A stretch of DNA of 64,000 nucleotides, from positions 105,505-169,504 of the forward strand of contig JAFODS010000028.1 of assembly GCA_017380575.1 (NCBI GenBank), given 5' to 3'. Below are positions 1,671 to 29,556 of the stretch, in pieces. Position 1 is the stretch's first letter. Each line of letters begins with the position of its first letter. Under the pieces are notes generated by a model. It worked only from the letters and a program-made list of their open reading frames with translations. It was not told the DNA's origin and ran no database searches. The translations under genes were made by a program, and so were the position numbers. This DNA comes from Clostridia bacterium. GTDB taxonomy: Bacteria > Bacillota > Clostridia > Oscillospirales > Acutalibacteraceae.

Positions 1671-3053
1671 TTAAAACATCATATTTTCAATAAAAAGCTG
1701 TGAAAAATCATTTATTGAGGATAAATCGACATATTCTGAATTTTTAAGTATCGAAGCCGTTTTGTCTGTTCCGCAGGCATATCCGACTGTTCCGAGCAAG
1801 CTGCTGTTGTTAATAGCCTTGCATTTATTTTCTAAGTCCTTCGGAATAAGACCTGTTTTTACAGCATTCTGTATATTGATTTTTGCGGAAAAGCCACCCG
1901 AAACACAGACTTTTTCAACATCATTATGTGTAATTTTTTTATATTTCAAAAGCGTTTCAATCGCTGAATATACGGCTGATTTTGCAAGCTGATACTGTCT
2001 TACATCTGCCTGCGAAATCGAAACACCGTCAGCAATTTCAATTTCTTCATTTTCCATATATCCTGTTTCGTCGATTTCACAACCAAGCAATTCAGCAATA
2101 ACATCAACAAGACCTGTACCGCAGATTCCTTTCGGAACAACATTTCCGACTGTTTTGTATCCCGACTTTGAATATGCATATATTGCACCGTCGGATGCAC
2201 TCATTCCGCACGAAATATTTGCTCCTTCAAAGCAAGGACCTGCCGCTGCGGAAGTGCAGACAACTTCACTTTCTGTAAAAAGTGCAATTTCTGCATTTGT
2301 GCCGAGGTCTATGAGCATATTGTATTTTCCTTTTTCAGGATATTCGATACAATTAAGACCCGCAACAATATCTGCACCGACAAATGCTGAAATACAAGGG
2401 AGCGACTCTACCCTTCCAACTCCTTTAAGACCGATTTCAACACCTTCAAACGTCTGCTTTTCAAGAAAAACAGGAGTATAAGGAGCGACACCTATTCCCG
2501 ACGGATCAACATTCCAAAACAAATGAAGCATCGTTGTATTACCCGAAACGAAGAGCGGAAGTTCTTTTTCACAGCCCAAAGAAGCAATCATTGAGTTGAT
2601 TTCATCAATAAGGATTCTATGGAGTTCCGTATGTGAAGATTTACGGCAATATTCAATTCTTGATATCACATCTGCTCCGTACATTTTCTGAGGGTTAGTA
2701 CGTGTTACTGTATTAATTACTTCATTATTATCAAGAGAAATGAGTGCAAGCGCAAGAGTTGTTGTACCTATATCGAGGGCAAAACACATATTTCCCATTT
2801 CAGATTTAGCGGTAGTGATTCCTGTTTCAGAAAAAATTTCAGCTTTTTCCGGTATAGTAACCTCAATATCAGCGGTTACGGTGTACTGACAGGAAAGCTC
2901 AGGTTTGCCGTCGACAAGTACCGTGCATTTTTTACAAATTCCTTTTCCTGCACAAGGATGGTCAACAAATATGCCGTTTTTAATGAGAATATCAGAAAGC
3001 CTTTCGCCTTTTTCAGCGTGTAGTATTTCATTTTTTAAAATTATTTCCGGCAT
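1671..3053 (-). CDS. 2Fe-2S ferredoxin / ASKHA-domain protein (corrinoid-activator-like, DUF4445 type)
   Basis: A 460-residue protein. The N-terminal ~70 residues form a plant-type 2Fe-2S ferredoxin domain with the cysteine pattern CAGKGICKKC...C. The remainder is an actin-like ATPase fold with phosphate-binding motifs (ALDIGTTTLALALI, LIDLGTNAEIAL, CVSGGFSAKINIQ). This is the architecture of RACo-type reductive activators, which use ATP to reset Co(II) corrinoid proteins to Co(I) (family knowledge). It is shorter than the ~600-residue acetogen RACo proteins. No corrinoid protein or methyltransferase lies nearby, so its partner is unknown. It has a GGAGGG ribosome site and its own terminator. 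Confidence 0.85.
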   Translation of the reverse strand: MPEIILKNEILHAEKGERLSDILIKNGIFVDHPCAGKGICKKCTVLVDGKPELSCQYTVTADIEVTIPEKAEIFSETGITTAKSEMGNMCFALDIGTTTLALALISLDNNEVINTVTRTNPQKMYGADVISRIEYCRKSSHTELHRILIDEINSMIASLGCEKELPLFVSGNTTMLHLFWNVDPSGIGVAPYTPVFLEKQTFEGVEIGLKGVGRVESLPCISAFVGADIVAGLNCIEYPEKGKYNMLIDLGTNAEIALFTESEVVCTSAAAGPCFEGANISCGMSASDGAIYAYSKSGYKTVGNVVPKGICGTGLVDVIAELLGCEIDETGYMENEEIEIADGVSISQADVRQYQLAKSAVYSAIETLLKYKKITHNDVEKVCVSGGFSAKINIQNAVKTGLIPKDLENKCKAINNSSLLGTVGYACGTDKTASILKNSEYVDLSSINDFSQLFIENMMF

Positions 3054-3547: not shown

Positions 3548-4768
3548 TTATCTGATACCGTAATTTTCGATAATATAGTCCATATCCTTATCGCCTCTGC
3601 CTGAGAGGTTGATAAGAACTGAGCCGTGATCCATTCTTTCTGCAAGCTTCATACCGTATGCAACAGCGTGTGAGCTTTCGATTGCAGGAATAATACCTTC
3701 AAGACGTGAGAGCTTGAAAAATGCATCAATTGTTTCATCGTCATTGATAACATCATACTTTACTCTGCCGATTTCCTGAAGGAAAGCATGTTCAGGACCT
3801 GAAGACGGATAATCAAGTCCGCTTGCAACAGAATAAACCGGTGCAGGCTCGCCGTTTTCATCCTTGAGCATAATGCTGTTGAAACCGTGCATAATGCCCT
3901 CTGTGCCGTACTTAAGGCTTGCGGCATGGTCACCGAGCTTTTCTCCTCTGCCGAGTGGTTCGATACCGTAAATATCAACAGGGTCATTAAGGAAGCCCGC
4001 AAAAAGACCTGCCGCATTGCTGCCACCGCCGACACAAGCTACGATTGCATTCGGAAGATGACCTGTCATTTCGATAAACTGTTCTCTTGCTTCGATACCT
4101 ACAACGCTTTGGAAATCACGTACCATCATCGGGAACGGATGAGGTCCGAGAACTGAACCGATACAGTAAATTGCATCGTTATATTCCTTGCTGTATGCAT
4201 CAAATGCCGCGTCAACAGCCTCTTTGAGTGTCTGAAGGCCGTGAGTAACCTCAACAACGTTTGCACCGAGAATCTTCATTCTTGCAACGTTCGGAGCCTG
4301 CTTTTTGATATCAACAGAGCCCATATAGATGTCACATTCAAGACCAAAATATGCTGCTGCAGTTGCAAGTGCAACACCGTGCTGACCTGCACCTGTTTCA
4401 GCGATAACCTTTTTCTTACCCATATACTTTGCAAGAAGTGCTTCACCCATACAGTGGTTAAGCTTGTGGGCACCCGAATGGTTAAGGTCTTCACGCTTTG
4501 CATAAAGCTGTACCTTTCCGCCAAGTGCATCAGAAAGACGCTCAAGGTGAGTTACGGGAGTCGGTCTGCCCTGGAACTCCTTGCGGATTCTGCGAAGCTC
4601 AGCAATAAACTTTCTTGACTGGCAGATTGAATAATAAGCCTCTGTTGTTTCAGCCATAGCTGCCTTGAGCTTATCGTCAACAAAAACTCCTCCGTATTTT
4701 CCGAAATATCCGTTTTTATCGGGATAGTTATTAAAATAAGTATCAAAATCAATTCCGTTGAGTTTCAT
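3548..4768 (-). CDS. trpB: Tryptophan synthase beta chain (TrpB), stand-alone
   Basis: A PLP enzyme that condenses indole with serine to form tryptophan. The PLP-lysine motif SGAHKLNHC, the glycine-rich phosphate loop GGGSNAAG and the TrpB signature [11 protein letters not shown] are all present. I start it at the ATG at 4768 (406 residues) because GGAGGAATT lies directly before it; an in-frame ATG 15 bp upstream is part of the ribosome site itself. No trpA or other trp gene is adjacent. It may work with a distant TrpA or salvage free indole. A T-box leader with a Trp specifier precedes it. Confidence 0.95.
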
Positions 4769-4873
4769 AATAAATTCCTCCATAAGTTAAGATTATAATA
4801 TTTTCGGTTCAGACTGAGCCTCGCCATCGTTTTGTAAGCAATACCATAATCTTCCTCCTGAAATAGTCTTTCT

Positions 4874-5158
4874 GACAAAAACAAAACGTCCCTGACAGAA
4901 TTAATTAATCTGTCAAGGACGAATAAAACTTATCCGCGGTGCCACCTTGTTTCACGGTTTACCGTGCACTTTCAGGATACTTACATACCCTTGCCAACTA
5001 ACGTATGGCTGACGTTGCAGAATACTTTGCATTACGCATTTGACTGCACCCTCCGCGGTCCATTTGACGAAGTGTTTCTTACCTGATTTTCAGCATCGCA
5101 GGCTCTCTGTAAAGGCATCGTCGCCGTTATCTCCGCATCAACGGTTTAATTTTAAAAT
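4874..5158 (-). promoter_or_regulatory. T-box leader of trpB, Trp specifier
   Basis: The T-box GGTGGCACCGCGG is at 4934-4946 on the reverse strand. It is followed by a terminator hairpin (4887-4921, 12-bp arms with one mismatch) and a T-rich tract. Upstream are the AGAGAGCC distal Stem I sequence and a specifier loop in which AAA-TGG-ACC can be read, with the TGG codon at 5060-5062. Uncharged tRNA-Trp would stabilise the antiterminator and allow trpB transcription. The match of specifier and downstream enzyme makes this assignment strong. Confidence 0.93.
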
Positions 5159-19399: not shown

Positions 19400-19942
19400 T
19401 TATTCAGCGTAGTCGTAGCCTGACTTGATAGCTGTTTCGTTAACACCGAGAAGCTCGATCTTACGTGCTGAAACAACCTTCTTAAGAGCTGCATCAACGT
19501 TATCAAGAGAAAAGCTTTCAACTTCCTTGAGAACCTTACCTGTGATAATCATATTAGCAAGAGTCTTGATGTTGTTATCATATGCCATCTGTGTTGCAGG
19601 GATATAATAAACATCAACGTCTGTTCTTTCAACCTTCTTGTCAATGAGTGTTGAATCGACGAAAATCTTACCGCCGCTTACAACAGAGTTCTCATACTTT
19701 TCAAGTGAAGGAAGGTTCATTGCGATGAGTACATCGGGAGCATCAACGATGGGAGAACCGATCGGCTCGTCGCTGATGATAACTGAACAGTTAGCTGTAC
19801 CGCCACGCATCTCGGGGCCGTATGACGGAAGCCAGCTTACCTGCTTGTCTTCAATAAGTCCTTTATATGCAAGGAATTTTCCTGCGAAGAGGATACCCTG
19901 TCCGCCGAAGCCTGCAAAAAGCAATCTGCATGTCTTACTCAT
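19400..19942 (-). CDS. 2-oxoacid:ferredoxin oxidoreductase, gamma subunit
   Basis: A 180-residue gamma (catalytic-domain II) subunit. It starts with the family motif [17 protein letters not shown] and contains the conserved [17 protein letters not shown]. It is the last gene of the operon and overlaps the beta-subunit stop by 4 bp. Together the alpha, beta, gamma and delta subunits interconvert a 2-oxoacid with acyl-CoA, CO2 and reduced ferredoxin. Confidence 0.93.
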
Positions 19943-20694
19943 TTTGCTTCCTCCTCTGCATAGATATCTTTATAAACACCGAGAGGATAATACGGAATCA
20001 TCTTCTCATCTACCCATTCGAGTGCCTTTTCGGGAGTCATACCCCAGTTTGTCGGGCAAGTTGAAACAACCTCGATAAGAGAGAAGCCTTTGCCTTCAAG
20101 CTGGTTTTGGAAAGCCTTTTTGATAGCCTTCTTTGCGTTCTTAACGTTCTTTACGTTGTTAACAGCAACTCGCTCAAGGTAAGCTGCACCGTCAACGTTT
20201 GAAAGAAGCTCACAAACCTTTACGGGATAACCTACTGTTTCAACATCTCTGCCGTAAGGTGAAGTCTGTGTAACCTGACCGGGAAGAGTTGTCGGAGCCA
20301 TCTGACCGCCTGTCATACCGTAGATTGCATTGTTTACGAAGATAACAGTGATGTTCTCTCTTCTTGCTGCTGCGTGTACCGTTTCAGCAGTACCGATAGC
20401 TGCAAGGTCACCGTCACCCTGATATGTAAATACGATCTTTGACGGATCACTTCTCTTAACACCTGTTGCAACTGCGGGAGCACGTCCGTGTGCAGCCTGA
20501 ACAAAGTCACATGTGAAATAGTTATATGCCATAACAGCACATCCAACGGGAGCAACACCGATTGTATCGCCCTCGATGCCGAGCTCGTCAATAACTTCCG
20601 CTACAAGGCGGTGGATAATACCGTGTGTACAACCCGGGCAATAGTGAAGCACTGCATCTGTGAGTGCCTTCGGCTTTTCAAATACTACTGACAT
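19939..20694 (-). CDS. 2-oxoacid:ferredoxin oxidoreductase, beta (TPP) subunit
   Basis: A 251-residue thiamine-diphosphate subunit with [11 protein letters not shown] near the start and the TPP/Mg motif [12 protein letters not shown]...[12 protein letters not shown]. Size and order fit VOR/KOR-type enzymes of Clostridia. The substrate (2-oxoisovalerate, 2-oxoglutarate or an aryl pyruvate) cannot be read from sequence alone. It shares one base with the alpha-subunit stop. Confidence 0.93.
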
Positions 20695-21761
20695 CAGAAC
20701 GCACCTCCGTTCTCGTTAACTTCATTGATTTTTGCAAGTACCTCTTCAGGTGTGGGGATCATACCGCCGACACGGTTGCAGAGGTAAACAGGCTTCTTGC
20801 AACGGATTGCAAGTTCAACATCTTCGATCATCTGACCCATGCTCATTTCAACACAGATGAATGCCTTGCACTTATCTGCTGCAGCTTCAAGAACCTTCTT
20901 CGGGAAGGGCCATACTGTGATAGGTCTGATCATACCAACCTTAACGCCGTTTGCACGAGCTTCGTTGATTGCATTCTTTGCAACACGTGAAGTAATACCA
21001 AAAGCAACAACACAAACCTCTGCATCGTCCATAAGGTACTCTTCGTACATAACTTCGTTTTCTTCGATTGCCTTATATTTCTCGTATCTTTCGAAGTTCT
21101 TGATTTCAAGCTCTTCGGGCTTAAGATAGAGTGAATTTACGATATTGTGCTCTCTTTCGCACTTCGTGCCTGTAAGTGCCCAGGGCTTCTCGTATTTTGT
21201 AACTTCGCCTACATCAAGTGATACCGGCTCCATCATCTGACCCATTGTGCCGTCAGCAAGGATCATTGAAACCATGCTGTACTTGTCTGCAAGGTCAAAA
21301 GCCTTTACTGTAAGGCTTGCCATTTCCTGAACTGAAGAAGGAGCGAGAACGATATTTCTGTAGTCACCGTGTCCGCCACCCTTTGTTGACTGGAAATAGT
21401 CAGACTGTGAAGGCTGGATACCGCCGAGACCGGGACCACCTCTCTGAACATTGACAACAACAGCAGGAAGGTCGCAACCTGCAAGGTATGAAATACCCTC
21501 AGCCTTAAGGGAAACTCCCGGGCTTGAAGATGATGTCATAACTCTTTTACCTGTTGATGCAACACCGATTACCATATTGATAGCAGAAACTTCACTTTCA
21601 GCCTGAAGGAAGGTTCCGCCGATTTTCGGCATACGCTTTGCCATATAAGCCGCAACTTCTGTCTGCGGTGTGATGGGATAGCCGAAGTAATGATGACAGC
21701 CTGCCTGAATAGCAGCTTCAGCAATAGCTTCGTTACCCTTCATAAGTACTTTTTCTGACAT
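20694..21761 (-). CDS. 2-oxoacid:ferredoxin oxidoreductase, alpha subunit (VorB-like)
   Basis: A 355-residue pyrimidine-binding/alpha subunit. It begins [30 protein letters not shown], the form usually annotated as 3-methyl-2-oxobutanoate dehydrogenase subunit VorB in Clostridia. The segment [20 protein letters not shown] and the C-terminal swivel domain are present. Gene order ferredoxin-alpha-beta-gamma and 0-8 bp spacings show a single complex. Confidence 0.92.
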
Positions 21762-21768
21762 TATTTTT

Positions 21769-21975
21769 TCACCTCTCTACCGTAATTACACAATCAGGAC
21801 ACATTGTTGCACAGAATGCGCAACCGATGCACTTTTCAGGCTCAGTTACTTCTGCGGGGTGATGGCCCTTAGCATTGAGCTTTGTTTCTGACAGTTTAAC
21901 GATACCTTTCGGACAAGCGCCGACGCAAAGGCTGCAGCCCTTGCAAAGGTCTGTTTTGAATGTTACTTTTGCCAT
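21769..21975 (-). CDS. 2-oxoacid oxidoreductase delta subunit, 2x[4Fe-4S] ferredoxin
   Basis: A 68-residue ferredoxin with two classical cluster motifs, CKGCSLCVGACPKG and CIGCAFCATMCPD. It carries electrons between the TPP site and the external ferredoxin pool. It lies 7 bp upstream of the alpha subunit. Confidence 0.94.
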   Translation of the reverse strand: MAKVTFKTDLCKGCSLCVGACPKGIVKLSETKLNAKGHHPAEVTEPEKCIGCAFCATMCPDCVITVER

Positions 21976-21989
21976 AGCTTTTACCTCTC

Positions 21990-22652
21990 TTAGTTTATCT
22001 TTTCCTGTAGTCTGAGTGGCATTAAATTCTCCACTTTGCCGTACAGATTATTATACAACTTTTCATCTACGGTTGTCAACCTTATTGGAAGACCCGTAGC
22101 CTTTGAAACCTCATCTGCATAGCCGAGAGAGTCAAGAACATCCTGCGCGGTTGTTTCCTCGCCTATGTTTGAGTTATTAACAATTGCCGTGAATTTCATT
22201 GAGCATGCCGCTTCAATTTCTGCCATAACCTCGAGAGTGCTTTCGACATCCCTTGTAAGAGGGCGGTACATATTGATTACCATAAACATCTCGTAGTTAT
22301 TTTCTTTCTTAAGACTGTCTGCATAACGACCGAGGGCATATGCTCCCCTGTCGTCGCCGCCGATGTCCATAACGGCATATTCTGTATTATTATCAACAAT
22401 GGAATAAACATCCTGAGGCAAAGCCGGAAGGTCGACGTTTGAGCTTGCATACTGCGAAGAAATAAGTCGGATTCCCGCCTCAGTCAGTTCTTTTTCGCTG
22501 TCTTTTGTTCGGAAGTAAGGATTGACGATATCAAGGTCAGCGATTGCGACGGGTTTGCCGTCCGCTCTGAGTTTAAGAGCATAATTAACCGCAATGTTTG
22601 TCTTTCCGCTTCCGTAATGACCTGCAAAAAGTGTTACGCGCTTCGATTCCAC
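21990..22652 (-). CDS. P-loop ATP-binding protein of the ligase/VOR operon
   Basis: A 220-residue SIMIBI-type P-loop protein with Walker A GHYGSGKTNIAVNYAL at residues 10-25, a switch-like DLDIVNPYFRT and a Walker B-like AVMDIGGDDRGAYALG. It resembles ParA/CobB-like ATPases found beside 2-oxoacid oxidoreductases. It sits 13 bp before the ligase fusion's stop and 14 bp upstream of the ferredoxin subunit, so it belongs to this operon. Cluster assembly or complex maturation is conceivable but not shown. Confidence 0.8.
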   Translation of the reverse strand: MESKRVTLFAGHYGSGKTNIAVNYALKLRADGKPVAIADLDIVNPYFRTKDSEKELTEAGIRLISSQYASSNVDLPALPQDVYSIVDNNTEYAVMDIGGDDRGAYALGRYADSLKKENNYEMFMVINMYRPLTRDVESTLEVMAEIEAACSMKFTAIVNNSNIGEETTAQDVLDSLGYADEVSKATGLPIRLTTVDEKLYNNLYGKVENLMPLRLQEKIN

Positions 22653-22665
22653 TGTATCACCTCTT

Positions 22666-24933
22666 TTAAAGCTGATTTCTTATAATCTTTCCGCTGATAG
22701 TCTTCGGAAGCTCTGTTCTGAACTCGACTATTCGCGGATACTTGTAAGGTGCTGTATGCTCCTTAACATATTTCTGGATTTCCTTTTTGAGTTCTTCTGT
22801 CGGCTCTGTACCCTTTGTAAGAACAATACTTGCCTTTACAACCTGGCCTCTCACCTCATCGGGAGCTGCAGAAACACCGCATTCAAGAACATACGGAAGC
22901 TCCATAATAACATTTTCGATTTCGAACGGTCCGATGCGGTAGCCTGATGACTTGATAACATCGTCTGTTCTGCCGACATACCATAAGTAACCGTCCTCGT
23001 CTGCCCACGCAGTGTCGCCTGTATGGTAGTAGCCGTCGTACCAGACATCCTTAGTCTTTTCTTCATTCATAAAGTAGCCGATGAAAAGACCGCAGGGTAC
23101 TTTATCGCTTGTCTTGATACAGATTTCACCTGTTTCACCAAGCTCGGCAGGTGTTCCGTCAGGACGGAGAATCTGAATATCGTAAAGCGGTACGGGTTTA
23201 CCCATTGAACCCGGCTTCGGATTCATACCGACAAGGTTTGCAATTGAAAGTGTTGTTTCTGTCTGACCGAAGCCTTCCATAAGTGTAAGTCCTGTTGCAT
23301 TATAGAACTGTTTGAACACTTCAGGATTAAGAGCCTCGCCTGCAACCGTCGCATGCTTGATTGAGCTTAAATCGTACTTGCTGATATCCTGCTTGATAAG
23401 CATTCTGTACATCGTAGGCGGTGCACAGAAGGTTGAAATCTGATACTTTGCGAAGAGCGGAAGAAGATCAGCCGCGTCAAATCTTTCAAAGTCATAGACA
23501 AAGATTGAGCCTTCGCAAAGCCACTGACCATAAAGCTTACCCCAGAGAGCCTTACCCCAGCCTGTTTCTGAAATTGTGAAGTGGAGCCCGTCCTTGCTTA
23601 CACAGTGCCAATACTTAGCAGTGATGTAATGGCCGAGAGGATATTTAAAGCTGTGTGTCGCGATTTTCGGATAGCCTGTTGTTCCTGAAGTGAAGAACAT
23701 AAGCATCGGATCGTCGCCGCACGGTGCATTTTCATCTCTTCTGTAACGGCGGCTGAAGAGGCAATATTCTTCATCGAAGCTATGCCAGCCTTCTCTTGTA
23801 CCGTTAACGATAATTTTATTTTTAAGTGTACCTGTAACTGCATCTGCAAGCTCAGCCTGTCTTGCTGTGTCACCGTCTGCGGTACAGATAATTGTTGAAA
23901 CGTTAGCAGCCTTGAATCTGTATTCAAAGTCGTGCTGAACAAGAAGGTTTGTTGCAGGAATAACAACAGCACCAATCTTGTGAAGACCGAGAATTGCAAA
24001 CCAGAACTGATAGTGACGCTTCATAACAAGCATTACCGTGTCGCCCTTCTTAATGCCGAGTGACTTAAAGTAGTTTGCAGCCTGGCTTGAATGCTCTTTG
24101 ATATCTTTATAAGTAAAGATTCTCTCATTCTTATCCTTATCAAGGTGAACCATCGCACGTTTGTCAGGTGACTTTCTGCCGATGTTATCCACAATATCAA
24201 AAGCAAAGTTGAAAGTATCTTCGTTATTGAAGTCGATTGAAACGAGGTTACCGTTCTCATCCTCATGTGCATCGATATACTTTTCACACACAAGGCTTCC
24301 CGAAGCTTTTGTACCCTTGACAGCTCTGTCATGGACAATCTTTTCAACAGCTTCGTCACTTGCCATAACCATTGCGAGGAAAACGCAGTCTCTTCCGTCA
24401 ACGGCAATCATACCGTGAGGTGTTGAGCTGTTGTAATAGATGCTGTCGCCCTCTTCGAGGATTTCCTCATGGTTACCGATTCTGACCTTGAGCTTACCGC
24501 TGATAACAAGATCAAACTCCTGACCTGCATGAGTTGTTGTATGAATCGGCTGATTTTCAAGCTCAGCTGAATATTCATAGCGTACCATGTACGGGTCTGA
24601 GAGTCTTTTTCTGAACTTCGGAGCAAGGTTTTTGATTTCGATGCCGTTTTCACTTGCAGTCGTCTGTCCCTTACCCTTTCTTGTTACCGTATACGATGTA
24701 AGAACGGCACTATGTCCTTCAAGGAGGTCGGTAAGACCGATATCAAAAGCAAGAGCACACTTATGAACAAAAGTGAACGGAAGATCAATTTCTCCTGCTT
24801 CATAAATATTATACTGTTCAACAGATACTTCTGTTTTTTCGGCCATTTCTTCTACGCTGAAGCCACAGATATCGCGCATTTCCTTAATTCGCTGTGCCAC
24901 CTCGTAGAGCTTATTAGTTGTGTTGTTTTCCAT
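22666..24933 (-). CDS. HTH-cupin-acyl-CoA synthetase fusion
   Basis: A 755-residue three-part protein. Residues ~10-65 are an XRE-type helix-turn-helix (GFSVEEMAEKTEVSVEQYNIYEAGE). Residues ~115-195 are a cupin with likely ligand-binding HAGQEFDLVISG and TPHGMI. Residues ~245-755 are a complete ANL adenylate-forming ligase: FTSGTTGYPKIA, GFGQTETT, TGDTAW, GRTDDVIKSSGYRIG and the catalytic-lysine ISGKIIRN. The ISETGWGK stretch is like medium-chain/branched-chain acyl-CoA synthetases. It is first in the T-box-led operon with the P-loop protein and VOR subunits. The HTH could make it a self-regulating enzyme. Confidence 0.9.
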   Translation of the reverse strand: MENNTTNKLYEVAQRIKEMRDICGFSVEEMAEKTEVSVEQYNIYEAGEIDLPFTFVHKCALAFDIGLTDLLEGHSAVLTSYTVTRKGKGQTTASENGIEIKNLAPKFRKRLSDPYMVRYEYSAELENQPIHTTTHAGQEFDLVISGKLKVRIGNHEEILEEGDSIYYNSSTPHGMIAVDGRDCVFLAMVMASDEAVEKIVHDRAVKGTKASGSLVCEKYIDAHEDENGNLVSIDFNNEDTFNFAFDIVDNIGRKSPDKRAMVHLDKDKNERIFTYKDIKEHSSQAANYFKSLGIKKGDTVMLVMKRHYQFWFAILGLHKIGAVVIPATNLLVQHDFEYRFKAANVSTIICTADGDTARQAELADAVTGTLKNKIIVNGTREGWHSFDEEYCLFSRRYRRDENAPCGDDPMLMFFTSGTTGYPKIATHSFKYPLGHYITAKYWHCVSKDGLHFTISETGWGKALWGKLYGQWLCEGSIFVYDFERFDAADLLPLFAKYQISTFCAPPTMYRMLIKQDISKYDLSSIKHATVAGEALNPEVFKQFYNATGLTLMEGFGQTETTLSIANLVGMNPKPGSMGKPVPLYDIQILRPDGTPAELGETGEICIKTSDKVPCGLFIGYFMNEEKTKDVWYDGYYHTGDTAWADEDGYLWYVGRTDDVIKSSGYRIGPFEIENVIMELPYVLECGVSAAPDEVRGQVVKASIVLTKGTEPTEELKKEIQKYVKEHTAPYKYPRIVEFRTELPKTISGKIIRNQL

Positions 24934-24963
24934 AAATTTACCTCCTTTTTATGACTTTGAGGA

Positions 24964-25256
24964 AATAAAAAACCGTCTCAAAGTCCTTAAAAACTTTGAG
25001 ACGGAAAATAAAATCCGCGGTACCACTCAAATTGCACTCTGCTATTGCTTTGTGCCACTCATCAGGGTCAGCCAACCCCTTAACACTAACGTAGTTATAC
25101 GGAAGAAACTATTTGCATTAAGCGTTCATCTCTCCGGCTCGGAAGTGATAGGTCATAACCGTTTGAAACTGTCGGTCTCGCACCAACCGCCGACTCTCTT
25201 TAAGTTTCGAAAACGCAACCGTCTTCGTCACAGCCTTTATAAACAATTACTTGTTG
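24964..25256 (-). promoter_or_regulatory. T-box leader of the acyl-CoA ligase/VOR operon
   Basis: The T-box core TGGTACCGCGG (25015-25026) is followed by a 14-bp terminator hairpin (24973-25004) and a T-run on the reverse strand. The 5' part has the distal Stem I sequence AGAGAGTCGG. The specifier loop falls in GGTTATGACC (25151-25160). By eye the codon could be GTT (Val), TAT (Tyr) or ATG (Met), and I could not decide between them. Confidence 0.9.
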
Positions 25257-25262
25257 CGATAT

Positions 25263-25291
25263 ATTATAAACTTATTATATATCATTTTCAA
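25263..25291 (-). promoter_or_regulatory. Promoter of the ligase/VOR operon
   Basis: TTGAAA (25286-25291) and a perfect TATAAT (25263-25268) on the reverse strand are spaced 17 bp. Confidence 0.8.
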
Positions 25292-25336: not shown

Positions 25337-27844
25337 TTATGCGGTAACAACTGAATTTGCTTTCTGCAAGCCGTATTTTTCAATCGCCATTTCACGCATT
25401 TTATACTTAAGAATCTTACCTGCGGCATTCATCGGGAATTCCTTGACAAAGTCAATGTACTTCGGTACCTTGTGCTTTGCCATATGGTCAAGAACATACT
25501 GCTTCATTTCTTCAACGGTCATCTCCTCACCCTCGTGAAGGATGATACAAGCCATAATTTCTTCGCCGAGGCCTTCGTCGGGCACACCGATAACCTGAAC
25601 ATCCTTAACCTTATCGTGAGTATAGATAAACTCTTCGATTTCCTTCGGGTAGATGTTTTCACCGCCACGGATAATCATATCTTTAAGTCGGCCCGTAATT
25701 TTGAAGTTGCCGTCGGGTGTTCTGCAAGCAAGGTCACCTGTATGAAGCCAGCCGTCCTTATCGATAGCCTCAGCGGTAGCCTTCGGCATCTTGTAATAGC
25801 CCTTCATAATGTTGTAACCTCTTGCAACGAATTCACCGTTGACATTATCAGGACATTCAAGACCTGTTTCGGGGTCGATTACCTTACACTCAATCTTCGG
25901 CAACGCTCTGCCGACTGTTGCAACACGAACCTCAAGCGGGTCATCCGTACTTGACATTGTACAACCCGGTGAAGCTTCCGTCTGACCGTAAACGATTGTA
26001 ATTTCCTTCATATTCATCTTGTCAACAACTTCGCGCATCTTTGCAATCGGACAGGGTGAACCAGCCATAATACCTGTTCTGACATAAGAAAAATCTGTCT
26101 TTTCAAAATCAGGATGCTGAAGCATTGCGATGAACATTGTCGGAACACCGTGGAATGCTGTAATTCTTTCATTATTTACACAAGCAAGTGATGATTTCGG
26201 TGAGAAATACGGCAAAGGAAGCACCGTACCACCGTGAGTCATAGTTGCTGTCATTGCAAGAACCATACCGAAGCAATGGAACATCGGAACCTGAATCATC
26301 ATTCTGTCCGCTGTTGAAAGATCCATTCTGTCACCGATACACTTACCGTTATTGACAACGTTATAGTGAGTAAGCATAACACCCTTCGGGAATCCCGTTG
26401 TTCCTGAAGTGTACTGCATATTACATACGTCATCCTTTTTAACAAGAGATGCCATACGGTAAACTTCCTCAACAGGAACCTGAGAAGACTTTTCAAGAGC
26501 TTCGTTCCATGTCATACAGCCTTTCTGCTCATAACCGACTGTAATGACGTTGCGAAGGAACGGAAGCTTCTTTGAATGAAGCTGTTCGCCAGGCTTAAGT
26601 GTTTCAAGCTCGGGGCAAAGCTCTGCCATAATCTCGTCATAGTGAGAATCTCTGTAACCCTGTACCATAACGAGAGTATGCGTATCAGACTGTCTGAAAA
26701 GATACTCTGCTTCGTGGATTTTGTAAGCTGTGTTGACAGTTACAAGAACAGCTCCGATCTTTGTTGCTGCCCAGAATGCGATATACCACTGAGGAACATT
26801 AGTTGCCCATACAGCAACGTGAGTACCTGCTTTTACGCCCATAGCAATGAGTGCACGTGCAAAGGTATCAACATCATCGCGGAACTCTGAATATGTTCTT
26901 GTATAGTCAAGTGTTGTATATTTGAACGCAAGCTGGTCAGGGAATTCTTCAACCATTGTATCAAGCACCTGAGAGAAGGTCTTTTCAATAAGCTCTTCCT
27001 TTTCCCATACAAACTTGCCTGTTCTTGACTTATTATAAAAATACTTTTTATTGCTCTTTGTGCTGCCCATAGCTTCCATAAAGCTTTCATAATGGGTAAG
27101 GATGATTTCAAGGTCATCAATCTCGCTCATCCATTCAGGATTCCATTCAATACAAACGAAGCCTGCATAGTTGATTGAGCGAAGAGCATTTGTCATCTCC
27201 TCAACAGGGAGCTTACCCTCACCGATGAGAGTGTGTCTGCCGTATTCTTCGGCATCGGTCATATGAACGAGTTTTACATATGCACCGAGGTTTTTGATTG
27301 TCTTCTCAGCATCCTCTTTAGCCTTGAAGAATGTTTCGTACATATTCCAGTCTGCACCGATATAATCGCTCGCAAAGAAGTTAAGAAGGTCACAGAGCTT
27401 GTCTGTATCAGCGTAAATGCCGACAGTTTCAACAAGAACAACGACGTTGTTTTTCTCGCAAAGGCTGATTACGTCTGACATAAAATCAGTAACATAGCTT
27501 ACTGCATCTTCGTCGTCGCTTTCAGCGTAAACCTTGATGTATGAAACGTTTATATTTCTTGCAACAGCAACTGCTGCTTCGATTTTTTTCATAATCTCTT
27601 GGGCATTTTCTTTGTCTGCAACATTACAGTTAACATCGATACAGGCAATCGCTTTCTTCGCATTGATAAGAGTACGCTTTGTTACGGATGCCATATCGGG
27701 GTTGAACGGAGAAGCCTTACCTGAAAAAGCATCTGCCTTTATATCGTGAATTTCAATTCCGTCATAGCGAAGCTCCTCGGCAATCTTAAGAAAATCGCCA
27801 AGACCCGATGCTTTATGGAATTTTGTTGAAAAAGCTAAATTCAC
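25337..27844 (-). CDS. TIM-barrel (AP-endonuclease 2-like) / acyl-CoA synthetase fusion
   Basis: An 835-residue two-domain protein. Residues 1-~265 look like a sugar-phosphate-isomerase/AP-endonuclease-2 TIM barrel (MNLAFSTKFHKASGLGDFL..., VLVETVGIYADTDKL, IGADWNMYETFF, VKLVHMTD, FVCIEWNPEW). Residues ~285-830 are a full ANL ligase with YTSGTTGFPKGV, VYGQTEASP, TGDLACRTPDG, GRLKDMIIRGGENIYP and the catalytic AAGKILKYKMRE. It directly follows the LeuA-like gene (2 bp) under a T-box. I know no characterised protein with this fusion. The barrel may act on the ligase substrate or product. Confidence 0.88.
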   Translation of the reverse strand: MNLAFSTKFHKASGLGDFLKIAEELRYDGIEIHDIKADAFSGKASPFNPDMASVTKRTLINAKKAIACIDVNCNVADKENAQEIMKKIEAAVAVARNINVSYIKVYAESDDEDAVSYVTDFMSDVISLCEKNNVVVLVETVGIYADTDKLCDLLNFFASDYIGADWNMYETFFKAKEDAEKTIKNLGAYVKLVHMTDAEEYGRHTLIGEGKLPVEEMTNALRSINYAGFVCIEWNPEWMSEIDDLEIILTHYESFMEAMGSTKSNKKYFYNKSRTGKFVWEKEELIEKTFSQVLDTMVEEFPDQLAFKYTTLDYTRTYSEFRDDVDTFARALIAMGVKAGTHVAVWATNVPQWYIAFWAATKIGAVLVTVNTAYKIHEAEYLFRQSDTHTLVMVQGYRDSHYDEIMAELCPELETLKPGEQLHSKKLPFLRNVITVGYEQKGCMTWNEALEKSSQVPVEEVYRMASLVKKDDVCNMQYTSGTTGFPKGVMLTHYNVVNNGKCIGDRMDLSTADRMMIQVPMFHCFGMVLAMTATMTHGGTVLPLPYFSPKSSLACVNNERITAFHGVPTMFIAMLQHPDFEKTDFSYVRTGIMAGSPCPIAKMREVVDKMNMKEITIVYGQTEASPGCTMSSTDDPLEVRVATVGRALPKIECKVIDPETGLECPDNVNGEFVARGYNIMKGYYKMPKATAEAIDKDGWLHTGDLACRTPDGNFKITGRLKDMIIRGGENIYPKEIEEFIYTHDKVKDVQVIGVPDEGLGEEIMACIILHEGEEMTVEEMKQYVLDHMAKHKVPKYIDFVKEFPMNAAGKILKYKMREMAIEKYGLQKANSVVTA

Positions 27845-27846
27845 TT

Positions 27847-29262
27847 TTATTCCTCCTCGTAGGCGATTTTATTGAGTGCACTTACATAAGCTCTGATACT
27901 TGCACCGATAACGTCAGTTGAAATACCTGTGCCTGAATAAAGCTTACCGCTTGCTGAACGAAGCTTCACAAGAGCTGAACCCATAGCTTCACGGCCTTCG
28001 GTTACTGACTTGATCTGGAAATCGTCAAGCTCATAGTGGTGACCGATAATGTGTTCAATTGCAAGGAAAGCCGCATCAATCGGACCGTCACCAACGCTTA
28101 CACCGCTCATCGGCTCGCCATCCTTAAGAAGGCGGATGTTAGCTGTTGCGGTGATAACGTTACCGCTGTTGATAACATAGCTTTCGATTGTATATGTTGC
28201 AGGTACCTGAAGTGCTGTTGAAGCGATGATTGCCTCAAGCTCCTTTGTGCCGACAAATTCCTTCTTTGCCGCAACTCGCTTGAATGCTTCATATACCTTT
28301 GAGTTATCCTCTTCGGAAAGGTCATAACCAATCTTCTTAACAGCCTTGATAACTGTTGAGATTGTATCGTTCTTATCAAGAGTGAGTGATTCTGCATTAT
28401 CGTTCACACCGTTTTCGAAGGGTGAATTTTCACTCTTTGTTGTGTTAACCATTCTCTTCATCTGATTAACAACTCTTGAAAGCTCTGTTGTACGGATTTT
28501 GCTTGAAACACCGTTTGAATCACCGCGGAGCTTGAACACGTTCATTACGTCTTCAATTGACGGGAAGCTGAAGCCTTCAACTGTTGTCTTGATCTCCCCT
28601 GCTCCTGCACTGATTGCTGAGAATGCACAGGCAACAGCCATATTGAGCTGGTCGCTGAGCTCGACAGAGAGAGTTACACCCTTGAGTTCAGGAACATTTT
28701 CAAAAATTGCCTTTACTAAATCATAAATTTCTGGCGGCATTATTGTACCTTCTGAATCGCAGATATTAATACGGTCTGCACCTGCTGCGATTGCTGCACG
28801 GATAACATCATAGAGGAAATCCTTTTCCGCTCTGATTGCATCTTCTGCAGAAAATTCAACGTTATCTGCATATTTCTTACACTCTGCAATAAGTGATGCT
28901 GCCATTTCCTTAACAACAGGAGGCTTCTTACCGCATTTGTACTCCATCTGTACTGCAGAAACCGGAACGCTTACCTTGAGCGAAGCCTTCTTTGCAGCCT
29001 TAACGCTGTTCCAAGCAGTTTCAACGCTTTCAGCAGTTATGCCGACAGGAACACACACTTCAGAGTGCTTCATAAGTGATGCAATAGTCTTAATCAAGAG
29101 AACATCAGTAGAAACGTTTTTAATTTCAGGCATTTCGATGCTGTTGAAATGTAGCTTATCCATAAGCTTTGCCATTTCAATTTTTTCTTTAAAGCTGAGT
29201 GAATGTTCTGTAGAATTTGCGCATTCTCTCAAAGTAATGTCTGATACATGAATCTTTCTCAT
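27847..29262 (-). CDS. LeuA-like protein (isopropylmalate/citramalate synthase family) lacking the HxH metal motif
   Basis: A 471-residue member of the DRE-TIM metallolyase superfamily with a C-terminal LeuA-type allosteric domain (about 350-470; YVINSGNVITATANIRL, GDGPIDAAFLAIE). The N-terminal SDITLREC (7-14) keeps the metal Asp and catalytic Arg. The usual HxHND is replaced by VELSD (200-204), and the GERAGN segment is gone. So it may be a non-canonical or inactive homologue. The start at 29262 is chosen because AAGGAGA precedes it and overlaps the earlier ATG. First gene of a T-box operon. Confidence 0.85.
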   Translation of the reverse strand: MRKIHVSDITLRECANSTEHSLSFKEKIEMAKLMDKLHFNSIEMPEIKNVSTDVLLIKTIASLMKHSEVCVPVGITAESVETAWNSVKAAKKASLKVSVPVSAVQMEYKCGKKPPVVKEMAASLIAECKKYADNVEFSAEDAIRAEKDFLYDVIRAAIAAGADRINICDSEGTIMPPEIYDLVKAIFENVPELKGVTLSVELSDQLNMAVACAFSAISAGAGEIKTTVEGFSFPSIEDVMNVFKLRGDSNGVSSKIRTTELSRVVNQMKRMVNTTKSENSPFENGVNDNAESLTLDKNDTISTVIKAVKKIGYDLSEEDNSKVYEAFKRVAAKKEFVGTKELEAIIASTALQVPATYTIESYVINSGNVITATANIRLLKDGEPMSGVSVGDGPIDAAFLAIEHIIGHHYELDDFQIKSVTEGREAMGSALVKLRSASGKLYSGTGISTDVIGASIRAYVSALNKIAYEEE

Positions 29263-29280
29263 AAATATTCTCCTTATCAT

Positions 29281-29556
29281 AAAAAAATCCCTGAAACACT
29301 CTGTGCTTCAGGGACGATAAACAAATTTACCGTGGTACCACCCGGATTGCTGAAAAACAGCCACTCTTCGGATTCTTTCAAATCCTAAGCTATGATAACG
29401 GTGCTTGCCGTGGTTCCTTATGCAGTCAGAAACGGTTAGGGAACCAAGCTCAGATACGAGACAGCCTAAACTTTCAAATACTGACTTTCACCAGCCGTCA
29501 GCTCTCTGCAAAATTACGGAAAAGGCTTAATATCTTCAAAGCTTTTCAAAAATATT
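29281..29556 (-). promoter_or_regulatory. T-box leader of the LeuA-like/ligase operon, probable Leu specifier
   Basis: The T-box core GGGTGGTACCACGG (29330-29343) is followed by a terminator hairpin (29288-29314) and seven T residues on the reverse strand. Stem I shows AGAGAGC and an AGATA-type loop. Between the helices AGCC/GGCT and AGATA/TATCT the 3' strand reads GT-CTC-G, giving a CTC (Leu) specifier at 29458-29460. This agrees with the downstream LeuA-like gene, but the pairing was judged by eye. Confidence 0.88.

Follow-up and report, generated by a model that had tools for sequence, protein, structure and literature searches.

Why should an RNA leader that responds to an uncharged tRNA stand before an acyl-CoA ligase and a 2-oxoacid:ferredoxin oxidoreductase (VOR)? 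This question is raised by an operon in a 64,000-nucleotide stretch of DNA (here called the window) from a Clostridia bacterium of the family Acutalibacteraceae (assembly GCA_017380575.1, contig JAFODS010000028.1), a metagenome-assembled genome (MAG) of 2.52 Mb in 79 contigs that is 88.8% complete. An original prediction, made from the DNA letters, had described a T-box ahead of a ligase fusion, a P-loop gene and a four-subunit VOR, and this arrangement was confirmed by Rfam, by the open reading frames and by Pfam and NCBIfam models. We consider it highly probable (roughly 0.83) that the module is anabolic, as the original prediction had also held, and uses free branched short-chain acids to build branched-chain amino acids. 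In the best reading of the sequence data, reductive carboxylation would lead from 2-methylbutyrate to Ile and from isobutyrate to Val; a route from isovalerate to Leu is less certain. We favour this reading because of the Ile specifier in the window, paralogues with Val and Leu specifiers, IlvE encoded beside VOR, and the finding that most genomes with the window-type module lack IlvC, IlvD and LeuB. The operon contains the following features, in which LigI denotes the ligase of the window and LigV its paralogue under Val T-boxes.

24994-25240, minus strand: Ile T-box leader of the VOR operon (Rfam RF00230, 95.3 bits against a gathering score of 93)
25147-25149, minus strand: specifier codon AUC (Ile), from the Rfam alignment and the specifier survey; 3' neighbour A, flanking GAAG/CUUC helix
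24973-25004, minus strand: intrinsic terminator of the Ile T-box, a 14-bp hairpin followed by a U run (fold of -20.1 kcal/mol)
22666-24933, minus strand: LigI, 755 amino acids, with XRE helix-turn-helix, cupin and AMP-binding domains (Pfam); AMP-forming acyl-CoA ligase, proposed 2-methylbutyrate--CoA ligase
23554-23556, minus strand: codon of Gly460 of LigI, the position separating LigI (Gly) from LigV (Ala)
21990-22652, minus strand: P-loop protein, CbiA/ParA-like (Pfam CbiA, 28.7 bits against 25.4), recurring in the cluster of relatives
21769-21975, minus strand: VOR delta subunit, 2x[4Fe-4S] ferredoxin (profile matches)
20694-21761, minus strand: VOR alpha subunit (VorB model NF005507, 545.7 bits against a cut-off of 399)
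19939-20694, minus strand: VOR beta subunit, thiamine pyrophosphate binding (Pfam TPP_enzyme_C, 82.2 bits; under the PorB_KorB cut-off)
19400-19942, minus strand: VOR gamma subunit (Pfam POR, 112.7 bits; under the PorC_KorC cut-off)

All four VOR subunits (alpha, beta, gamma and delta) are encoded together in this operon. The leader scored 84.9 bits with our own Stem I covariance model, to whose training set it belonged. Its terminator folded far better than shuffled sequences (z -5.9; 0/200 shuffles as good). Stem I folded alone was not better than its shuffles (z -0.3), and the T-box call therefore rests on covariance models and not on folding energy. The original prediction had left the specifier to such a model, and the reading obtained was AUC (Ile) at 25147-25149.

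The specifier was surveyed across 109 related loci, comprising 80 loci from named genomes, out of at least 551 stretches encoding a relative, and 29 loci from 150 genomes of the same family. Among the 80 named-genome loci, for 39 of which a herbivore host is named, the genes recur in the order LigI, LigV, P-loop protein, ferredoxin, VOR alpha, beta and gamma, and genes for a LeuA-like protein and a TIM-ligase (described below) often lie beside this cluster. Ligases were sorted by their best BLAST match to the paralogues of the source genome, with the T-box disregarded. The Stem I model, trained on 46 leaders picked for having the expected specifier, was run on the window, 11 other loci of the source genome and the 109 related loci. 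Among the T-boxes found in the window and the 109 loci, all 99 of LigI carried an Ile specifier (AUC), all 58 of LigV a Val specifier (GUA in 51, GUC in 7) and all 34 of the LeuA-like gene a Leu specifier (CUC in 18, CUG in 15, CUU in one). One further Ile-type ligase with AUC and three T-box matches without an assigned gene were also found. The same agreement was seen outside the 46 training leaders (LigI 80/80 Ile, LigV 44/44 Val, LeuA-like 21/21 Leu), and leaders distinct both from the training set and from each other were all cognate (76, 41 and 21, respectively). When each distinct leader of the whole set is counted once, 95 remain for LigI, 55 for LigV and 34 for the LeuA-like gene. Where at least 330 bases upstream were available, a T-box was present before 98/101 LigI, 56/76 LigV and 29/32 LeuA-like genes. 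LigV genes without a Val T-box of their own probably share the LigI transcript, because the 19 LigI-LigV gaps measured in such cases span 11-274 bases.

A pattern (regular-expression) reading of the leaders, which preceded any choice by specifier and whose rule was loosened after the leaders had been seen, gave a similar picture. A first rule, requiring a purine after the specifier, was dropped: it left 41 LigI leaders unread, returned 51 ATC, 4 other and 6 none for LigI, and gave odd codons in a few LigV and LeuA-like leaders. The loosened rule read ATC in 90 LigI leaders, with 3 other and 9 without a match (90/93 among those read), Val in 52 LigV leaders with 24 unmatched (52/52 among those read), and Leu in 23 LeuA-like leaders with 1 other and 8 unmatched (23/24 among those read). 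The odd readings vanish in the covariance-model alignment. The base 3' of the AUC specifier is C, not a purine, in 36 of the 99 LigI leaders (e.g. L041, L043 and L054). A gene that appears ACT-like by eye, possibly an amino acid sensor, follows some of the ligases under Ile T-boxes (L016, 1-1152 on the minus strand, L077, L099 and L101), with no NCBIfam match at 1e-20.

The 150 genomes of the same family were searched for IlvC, IlvD, LeuB, IlvE, the ligase, VOR alpha and the LeuA-like protein. We defined the window-type module as a ligase of at least 1000 bits together with a VOR alpha of at least 559 bits, which occurred in 32 of the 150 genomes. IlvC was present in 8/32 module genomes versus 77/118 others (Fisher p 9e-5, nominal across related genomes), IlvD in 9/32 versus 75/118 and LeuB in 6/32 versus 79/118. 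IlvE was encoded in 31/32 module genomes, the source genome included, versus 97/118 others (p 0.046); the ligase, the ferredoxin oxidoreductase and a branched-chain amino acid aminotransferase are therefore combined in a single genome in 31 of the 32 cases. Among genomes lacking IlvC, IlvE was found in 23/24 with the module versus 22/41 without it, and 22/32 module genomes encoded IlvE with IlvC and IlvD both absent. When only genomes at least 95% complete were counted (n=97), IlvC was present in 8/24 module genomes versus 58/73 and LeuB in 6/24 versus 60/73. In 24/33 genomes IlvE is encoded on the strand of VOR alpha and no more than 2.3 kb away from it, one of these 24 cases being a partial match; in the source genome it is on another contig than VOR. 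Of 50 named genomes encoding a LigI-type ligase, a set that overlaps the 150, 6 have IlvC. G063, the only additional member of the genus among the sampled genomes, encodes IlvC, IlvD and LeuB, and ligase and VOR were not found in it.

Beyond what the original prediction had covered, a second T-box, with a Leu specifier, precedes an operon directly upstream:

29307-29548, minus strand: Leu T-box leader (Rfam RF00230, 95.8 bits against a gathering score of 93)
29458-29460, minus strand: specifier codon CUC (Leu), from the Rfam alignment and the specifier survey
27847-29280, minus strand: LeuA-like protein without the metal site of 2-isopropylmalate synthase, LeuA_dimer domain kept (profile matches, alignment)
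25337-27844, minus strand: TIM-ligase, a xylose-isomerase-like TIM barrel fused to an AMP-forming acyl-CoA ligase (Pfam AP_endonuc_2 and AMP-binding)

The TIM-ligase gene lies directly downstream of 29 of the 30 long LeuA-like matches among the related loci; the thirtieth (L058) has a weaker match cut by the locus end. We rejected a classical LeuA identity for the LeuA-like gene. The protein scored 271.8 against the LeuA equivalog TIGR00973, below the cut-off of 598.7, and the LeuA metal motif HCHND reads ELSDQ in the window. The metal ligands of 2-isopropylmalate synthase are the HxH motif and the Asp of an RD pair. In an alignment of 30 LeuA-like sequences (L087, with a stop, was left out), both His were kept in none and the second His in one (L050), and the Asp was likewise kept in none; the LeuA_dimer domain was nearly invariant in its GDGPIDAAF region. 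Counting presence at 300 bits or more, with the fragments in G060 not counted, 33 of the 150 genomes encode the protein; LeuB was found in 3 of these 33, leaving 30 without it, versus 82 of the 117 others. With its metal ligands lost and LeuB mostly absent, the LeuA-like protein probably does not make isopropylmalate by the usual route. Having lost the metal site, it has probably lost catalysis as well. The TIM barrel of the TIM-ligase is also variable at the sites where we would presume metal ligands. With moderate confidence we propose isovalerate as the substrate of the TIM-ligase, and with low confidence we suggest a leucine-sensing role for the LeuA-like protein. A more speculative and rather doubtful extension is that the metal-less LeuA relative and the degenerate TIM barrel form a leucine-feedback subunit for isovalerate activation, with the XRE-cupin parts of LigI and LigV as the matching Ile and Val sensors. 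If true, each ligase would be under two controls, one at the RNA level exerted by its tRNA and one at the protein level exerted by its amino acid.

What might separate the substrates of LigI and LigV? A comparison of 103 LigI-type with 60 LigV sequences, with an 85% threshold applied to each group, singled out 11 positions; ten are in the XRE-cupin half and one, residue 460, is in the catalytic half. Residue 460 is Gly in 102/103 LigI-type sequences and Ala in 60/60 LigV sequences, and weaker differences show at lower thresholds. By alignment the site is Val in acetyl-CoA synthetase 9g79, which we take to be the valine lining the acyl pocket of that enzyme, and a smaller pocket in the Val paralogue LigV would suit isobutyrate. 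In a tree LigV forms one clade (support 1.0), while under midpoint rooting the LigI-type sequences do not, and the second Ile ligase of the source genome groups beside LigV. The best NCBIfam model of LigI is MbcS (NF047394, 435.8 bits, under the equivalog cut-off of 850), so that LigI is related to MbcS but is not filed as MbcS. Its closest solved relative by sequence is the archaeal MacsMa (PDB 3ETC), the 2-methylbutyryl-CoA synthetase of Methanosarcina acetivorans, with 640.9 bits over residues 238-753, a match that excludes the XRE/cupin part of LigI. MacsMa has the same Gly at the 460 position, and according to passages of PMC10455477 it favours 2-methylbutyrate and is also able to adenylate propionate.

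A further 40, mostly more distant, ligase loci showed the XRE-cupin part adjoining the ligase in 40/40. T-boxes were found in 12 of them, all Ile (AUC), with Gly (9) or Met (3) at the 460 site; the other 28 have Ala (15), Met (11) or Gly (2). In most of L143-L181 stops or gaps between the XRE-cupin part and the ligase suggest two adjacent genes in place of one, and the fusion of the window may therefore be derived.

The source genome itself holds 14 T-box matches in Rfam, 6 of them above the gathering score, and the specifier could be read by eye in 13; the weak match L014 gave none. Our Stem I model missed two of these T-boxes, L011 and L014, and L011 (Cys) was read by eye only. Specifiers before ileS, valS, pheS, tyrS, thrS, a Met gene and trpB were cognate, these genes having been identified by eye from translations except for trpB. 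Two more XRE-cupin ligases share 63% identity with LigI of the window, one having an Ile and the other a Val T-box. A fourth is truncated where its small contig ends, and over 593 residues it matches the second Ile ligase with 97% identity; these two Ile-T-box ligases lie on small contigs (C45 and C56; L016 and L015) and perhaps reflect strain variation in the assembly. For the three ligases of the source genome that were scanned, MbcS was the best NCBIfam model, each below its cut-off. The Trp T-box is in the window as well:

4912-5150, minus strand: Trp T-box, specifier UGG, before trpB (3548-4783) (Rfam alignment)

A gene for an AcsV-like corrinoid activation protein, under its cut-off, lies farther along from trpB (1671-3053).

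From the observed genes, specifiers, neighbourhood and co-occurrence we infer the substrates, the direction of VOR and the regulatory outcome of the module. Dedicated AMP-forming ligases would activate free acids to acyl-CoA, LigI yielding 2-methylbutyryl-CoA for Ile and LigV isobutyryl-CoA for Val, while the LeuA-like protein and the TIM-ligase together probably handle isovalerate on the way to Leu. A shared VOR would reductively carboxylate the acyl-CoAs to 2-oxoacids, which IlvE would transaminate. Each T-box would permit reading of its operon once its own uncharged tRNA accumulates.

Other explanations have to be weighed against this proposal. MbcS makes the branched acyl-CoAs that prime the synthesis of branched membrane fatty acids, and as the best NCBIfam model of the three ligases scanned, though below its cut-off, it lends something to the idea that the ligases here make such primers while VOR supplies or drains acyl-CoA from 2-oxoacids. 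We regard this as unlikely: specifiers that differ by paralogue and IlvE beside VOR in 24/33 genomes fit amino acid supply better, and IlvC and LeuB are absent from most genomes with the window-type module. An Ile specifier would equally be expected if LigI were a propionate ligase and VOR made 2-oxobutyrate for the ordinary isoleucine pathway. That pathway requires IlvC and IlvD to proceed from 2-oxobutyrate to Ile, and the 22/32 module genomes with IlvE but neither of these enzymes, together with LigV under Val T-boxes, which would be left unexplained, make this quite improbable even though MacsMa can adenylate propionate (PMC10455477).

The module might also be catabolic, with amino acids fermented through VOR and the ligase acting on the acid end, as VORs are classically fermentative enzymes. 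T-boxes, however, switch their genes on when an amino acid is scarce, and AMP-forming ligases work in the direction of acyl-CoA; with IlvE also kept in 23/24 module genomes without IlvC, a breakdown route appears very improbable. The original prediction had left branched-chain and aryl acids side by side. The branched-chain part was supported, as the specifiers found on module genes are all Ile, Val or Leu; the aryl part, in which phenylacetate or indoleacetate would give Phe or Trp, was not. Phe formation from phenylacetate is reported for rumen cultures in passages of PMC7356843, but none of the T-boxes detected before module genes, in the window or at the 109 loci, carries a Phe, Tyr or Trp specifier, although the same Stem I model did detect Phe, Tyr and Trp leaders in the source genome, before pheS, tyrS and trpB. 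We therefore give an aryl route next to no credence.

Several points count against branched-chain amino acid synthesis by this module. The assignment is a prediction from sequence, and neither LigI (MbcS) nor VOR beta (TIGR02177, 117.7 against 261.9) nor VOR gamma (TIGR02175, 70.4 against 81.1) reached its cut-off. Our Stem I model found no T-box at 28 of the 40 distant ligase loci, and a rescan of 20 of these 28 with Rfam found none either. One ligase, L133, combines an Ile T-box with Ala460; its 1.1 Mb genome (G022) has one ligase match, perhaps a dual-substrate enzyme. Module thresholds were set after the hit lists had been seen, 8/32 module genomes still encode IlvC, and the p values overstate independence because the genomes are related; the source genome is moreover a MAG of 88.8% completeness. 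Among genomes at least 95% complete, IlvE alone did not differ (23/24 versus 66/73, p 0.67). With loose thresholds, counting every ligase and VOR alpha match, the link to IlvC nearly vanishes (37/76 versus 48/74, p 0.05), so that the exclusion of IlvC concerns the window-type module only.

The proposed chemistry and products are those of rumen reductive carboxylation. Passages of PMC7356843 cite work of the 1960s-1970s on the synthesis of Val, Leu and Ile by rumen bacteria from branched volatile acids, with isovalerate, 2-methylbutyrate and isobutyrate, after Allison and co-workers, as precursors of Leu, Ile and Val, respectively. Here a specific gene set, a separate ligase per amino acid and T-box control are proposed in addition. 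The leaders share Stem I, specifier, antiterminator and terminator with the T-boxes of Firmicutes, for which the specifier has served to predict gene function (Wels et al. 2008, PMC2494555). The passages of that paper that we cite treat tRNA ligases, transporters and some biosynthesis genes (leuA, trpE), and the terms CoA, oxidoreductase and ferredoxin are absent from its main text. The paper also reports a leuA gene preceded by a T-box; the LeuA-like protein shares the family, the LeuA_dimer domain and Leu T-box control with LeuA, but differs in the lost metal-site residues (30 aligned sequences) and in the 30/33 genomes without LeuB. In a literature search covering listings and passages of open-licence papers we recognised no paper tying T-boxes, these ligases and VOR to the route. 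The original prediction had called the operon a good candidate for poorly defined genes, and the search found no assignment of them. The route is known biochemically, and the gene set and its wiring appear to be new within the literature searched.

We regard the module as a strong and testable candidate for the genes of a route known for decades, and its wiring by individual amino acid is unusual. It offers a conserved set of candidate genes whose likely substrates are indicated by the specifier codons themselves. Our analysis points to strain NK3D112 (L104; presumably cultured, since its title has no MAG label), which has the full cluster and in which IlvC was not found. The module would further predict which gut bacteria depend on branched acids from others, a cross-feeding link relevant to ruminant feeding.

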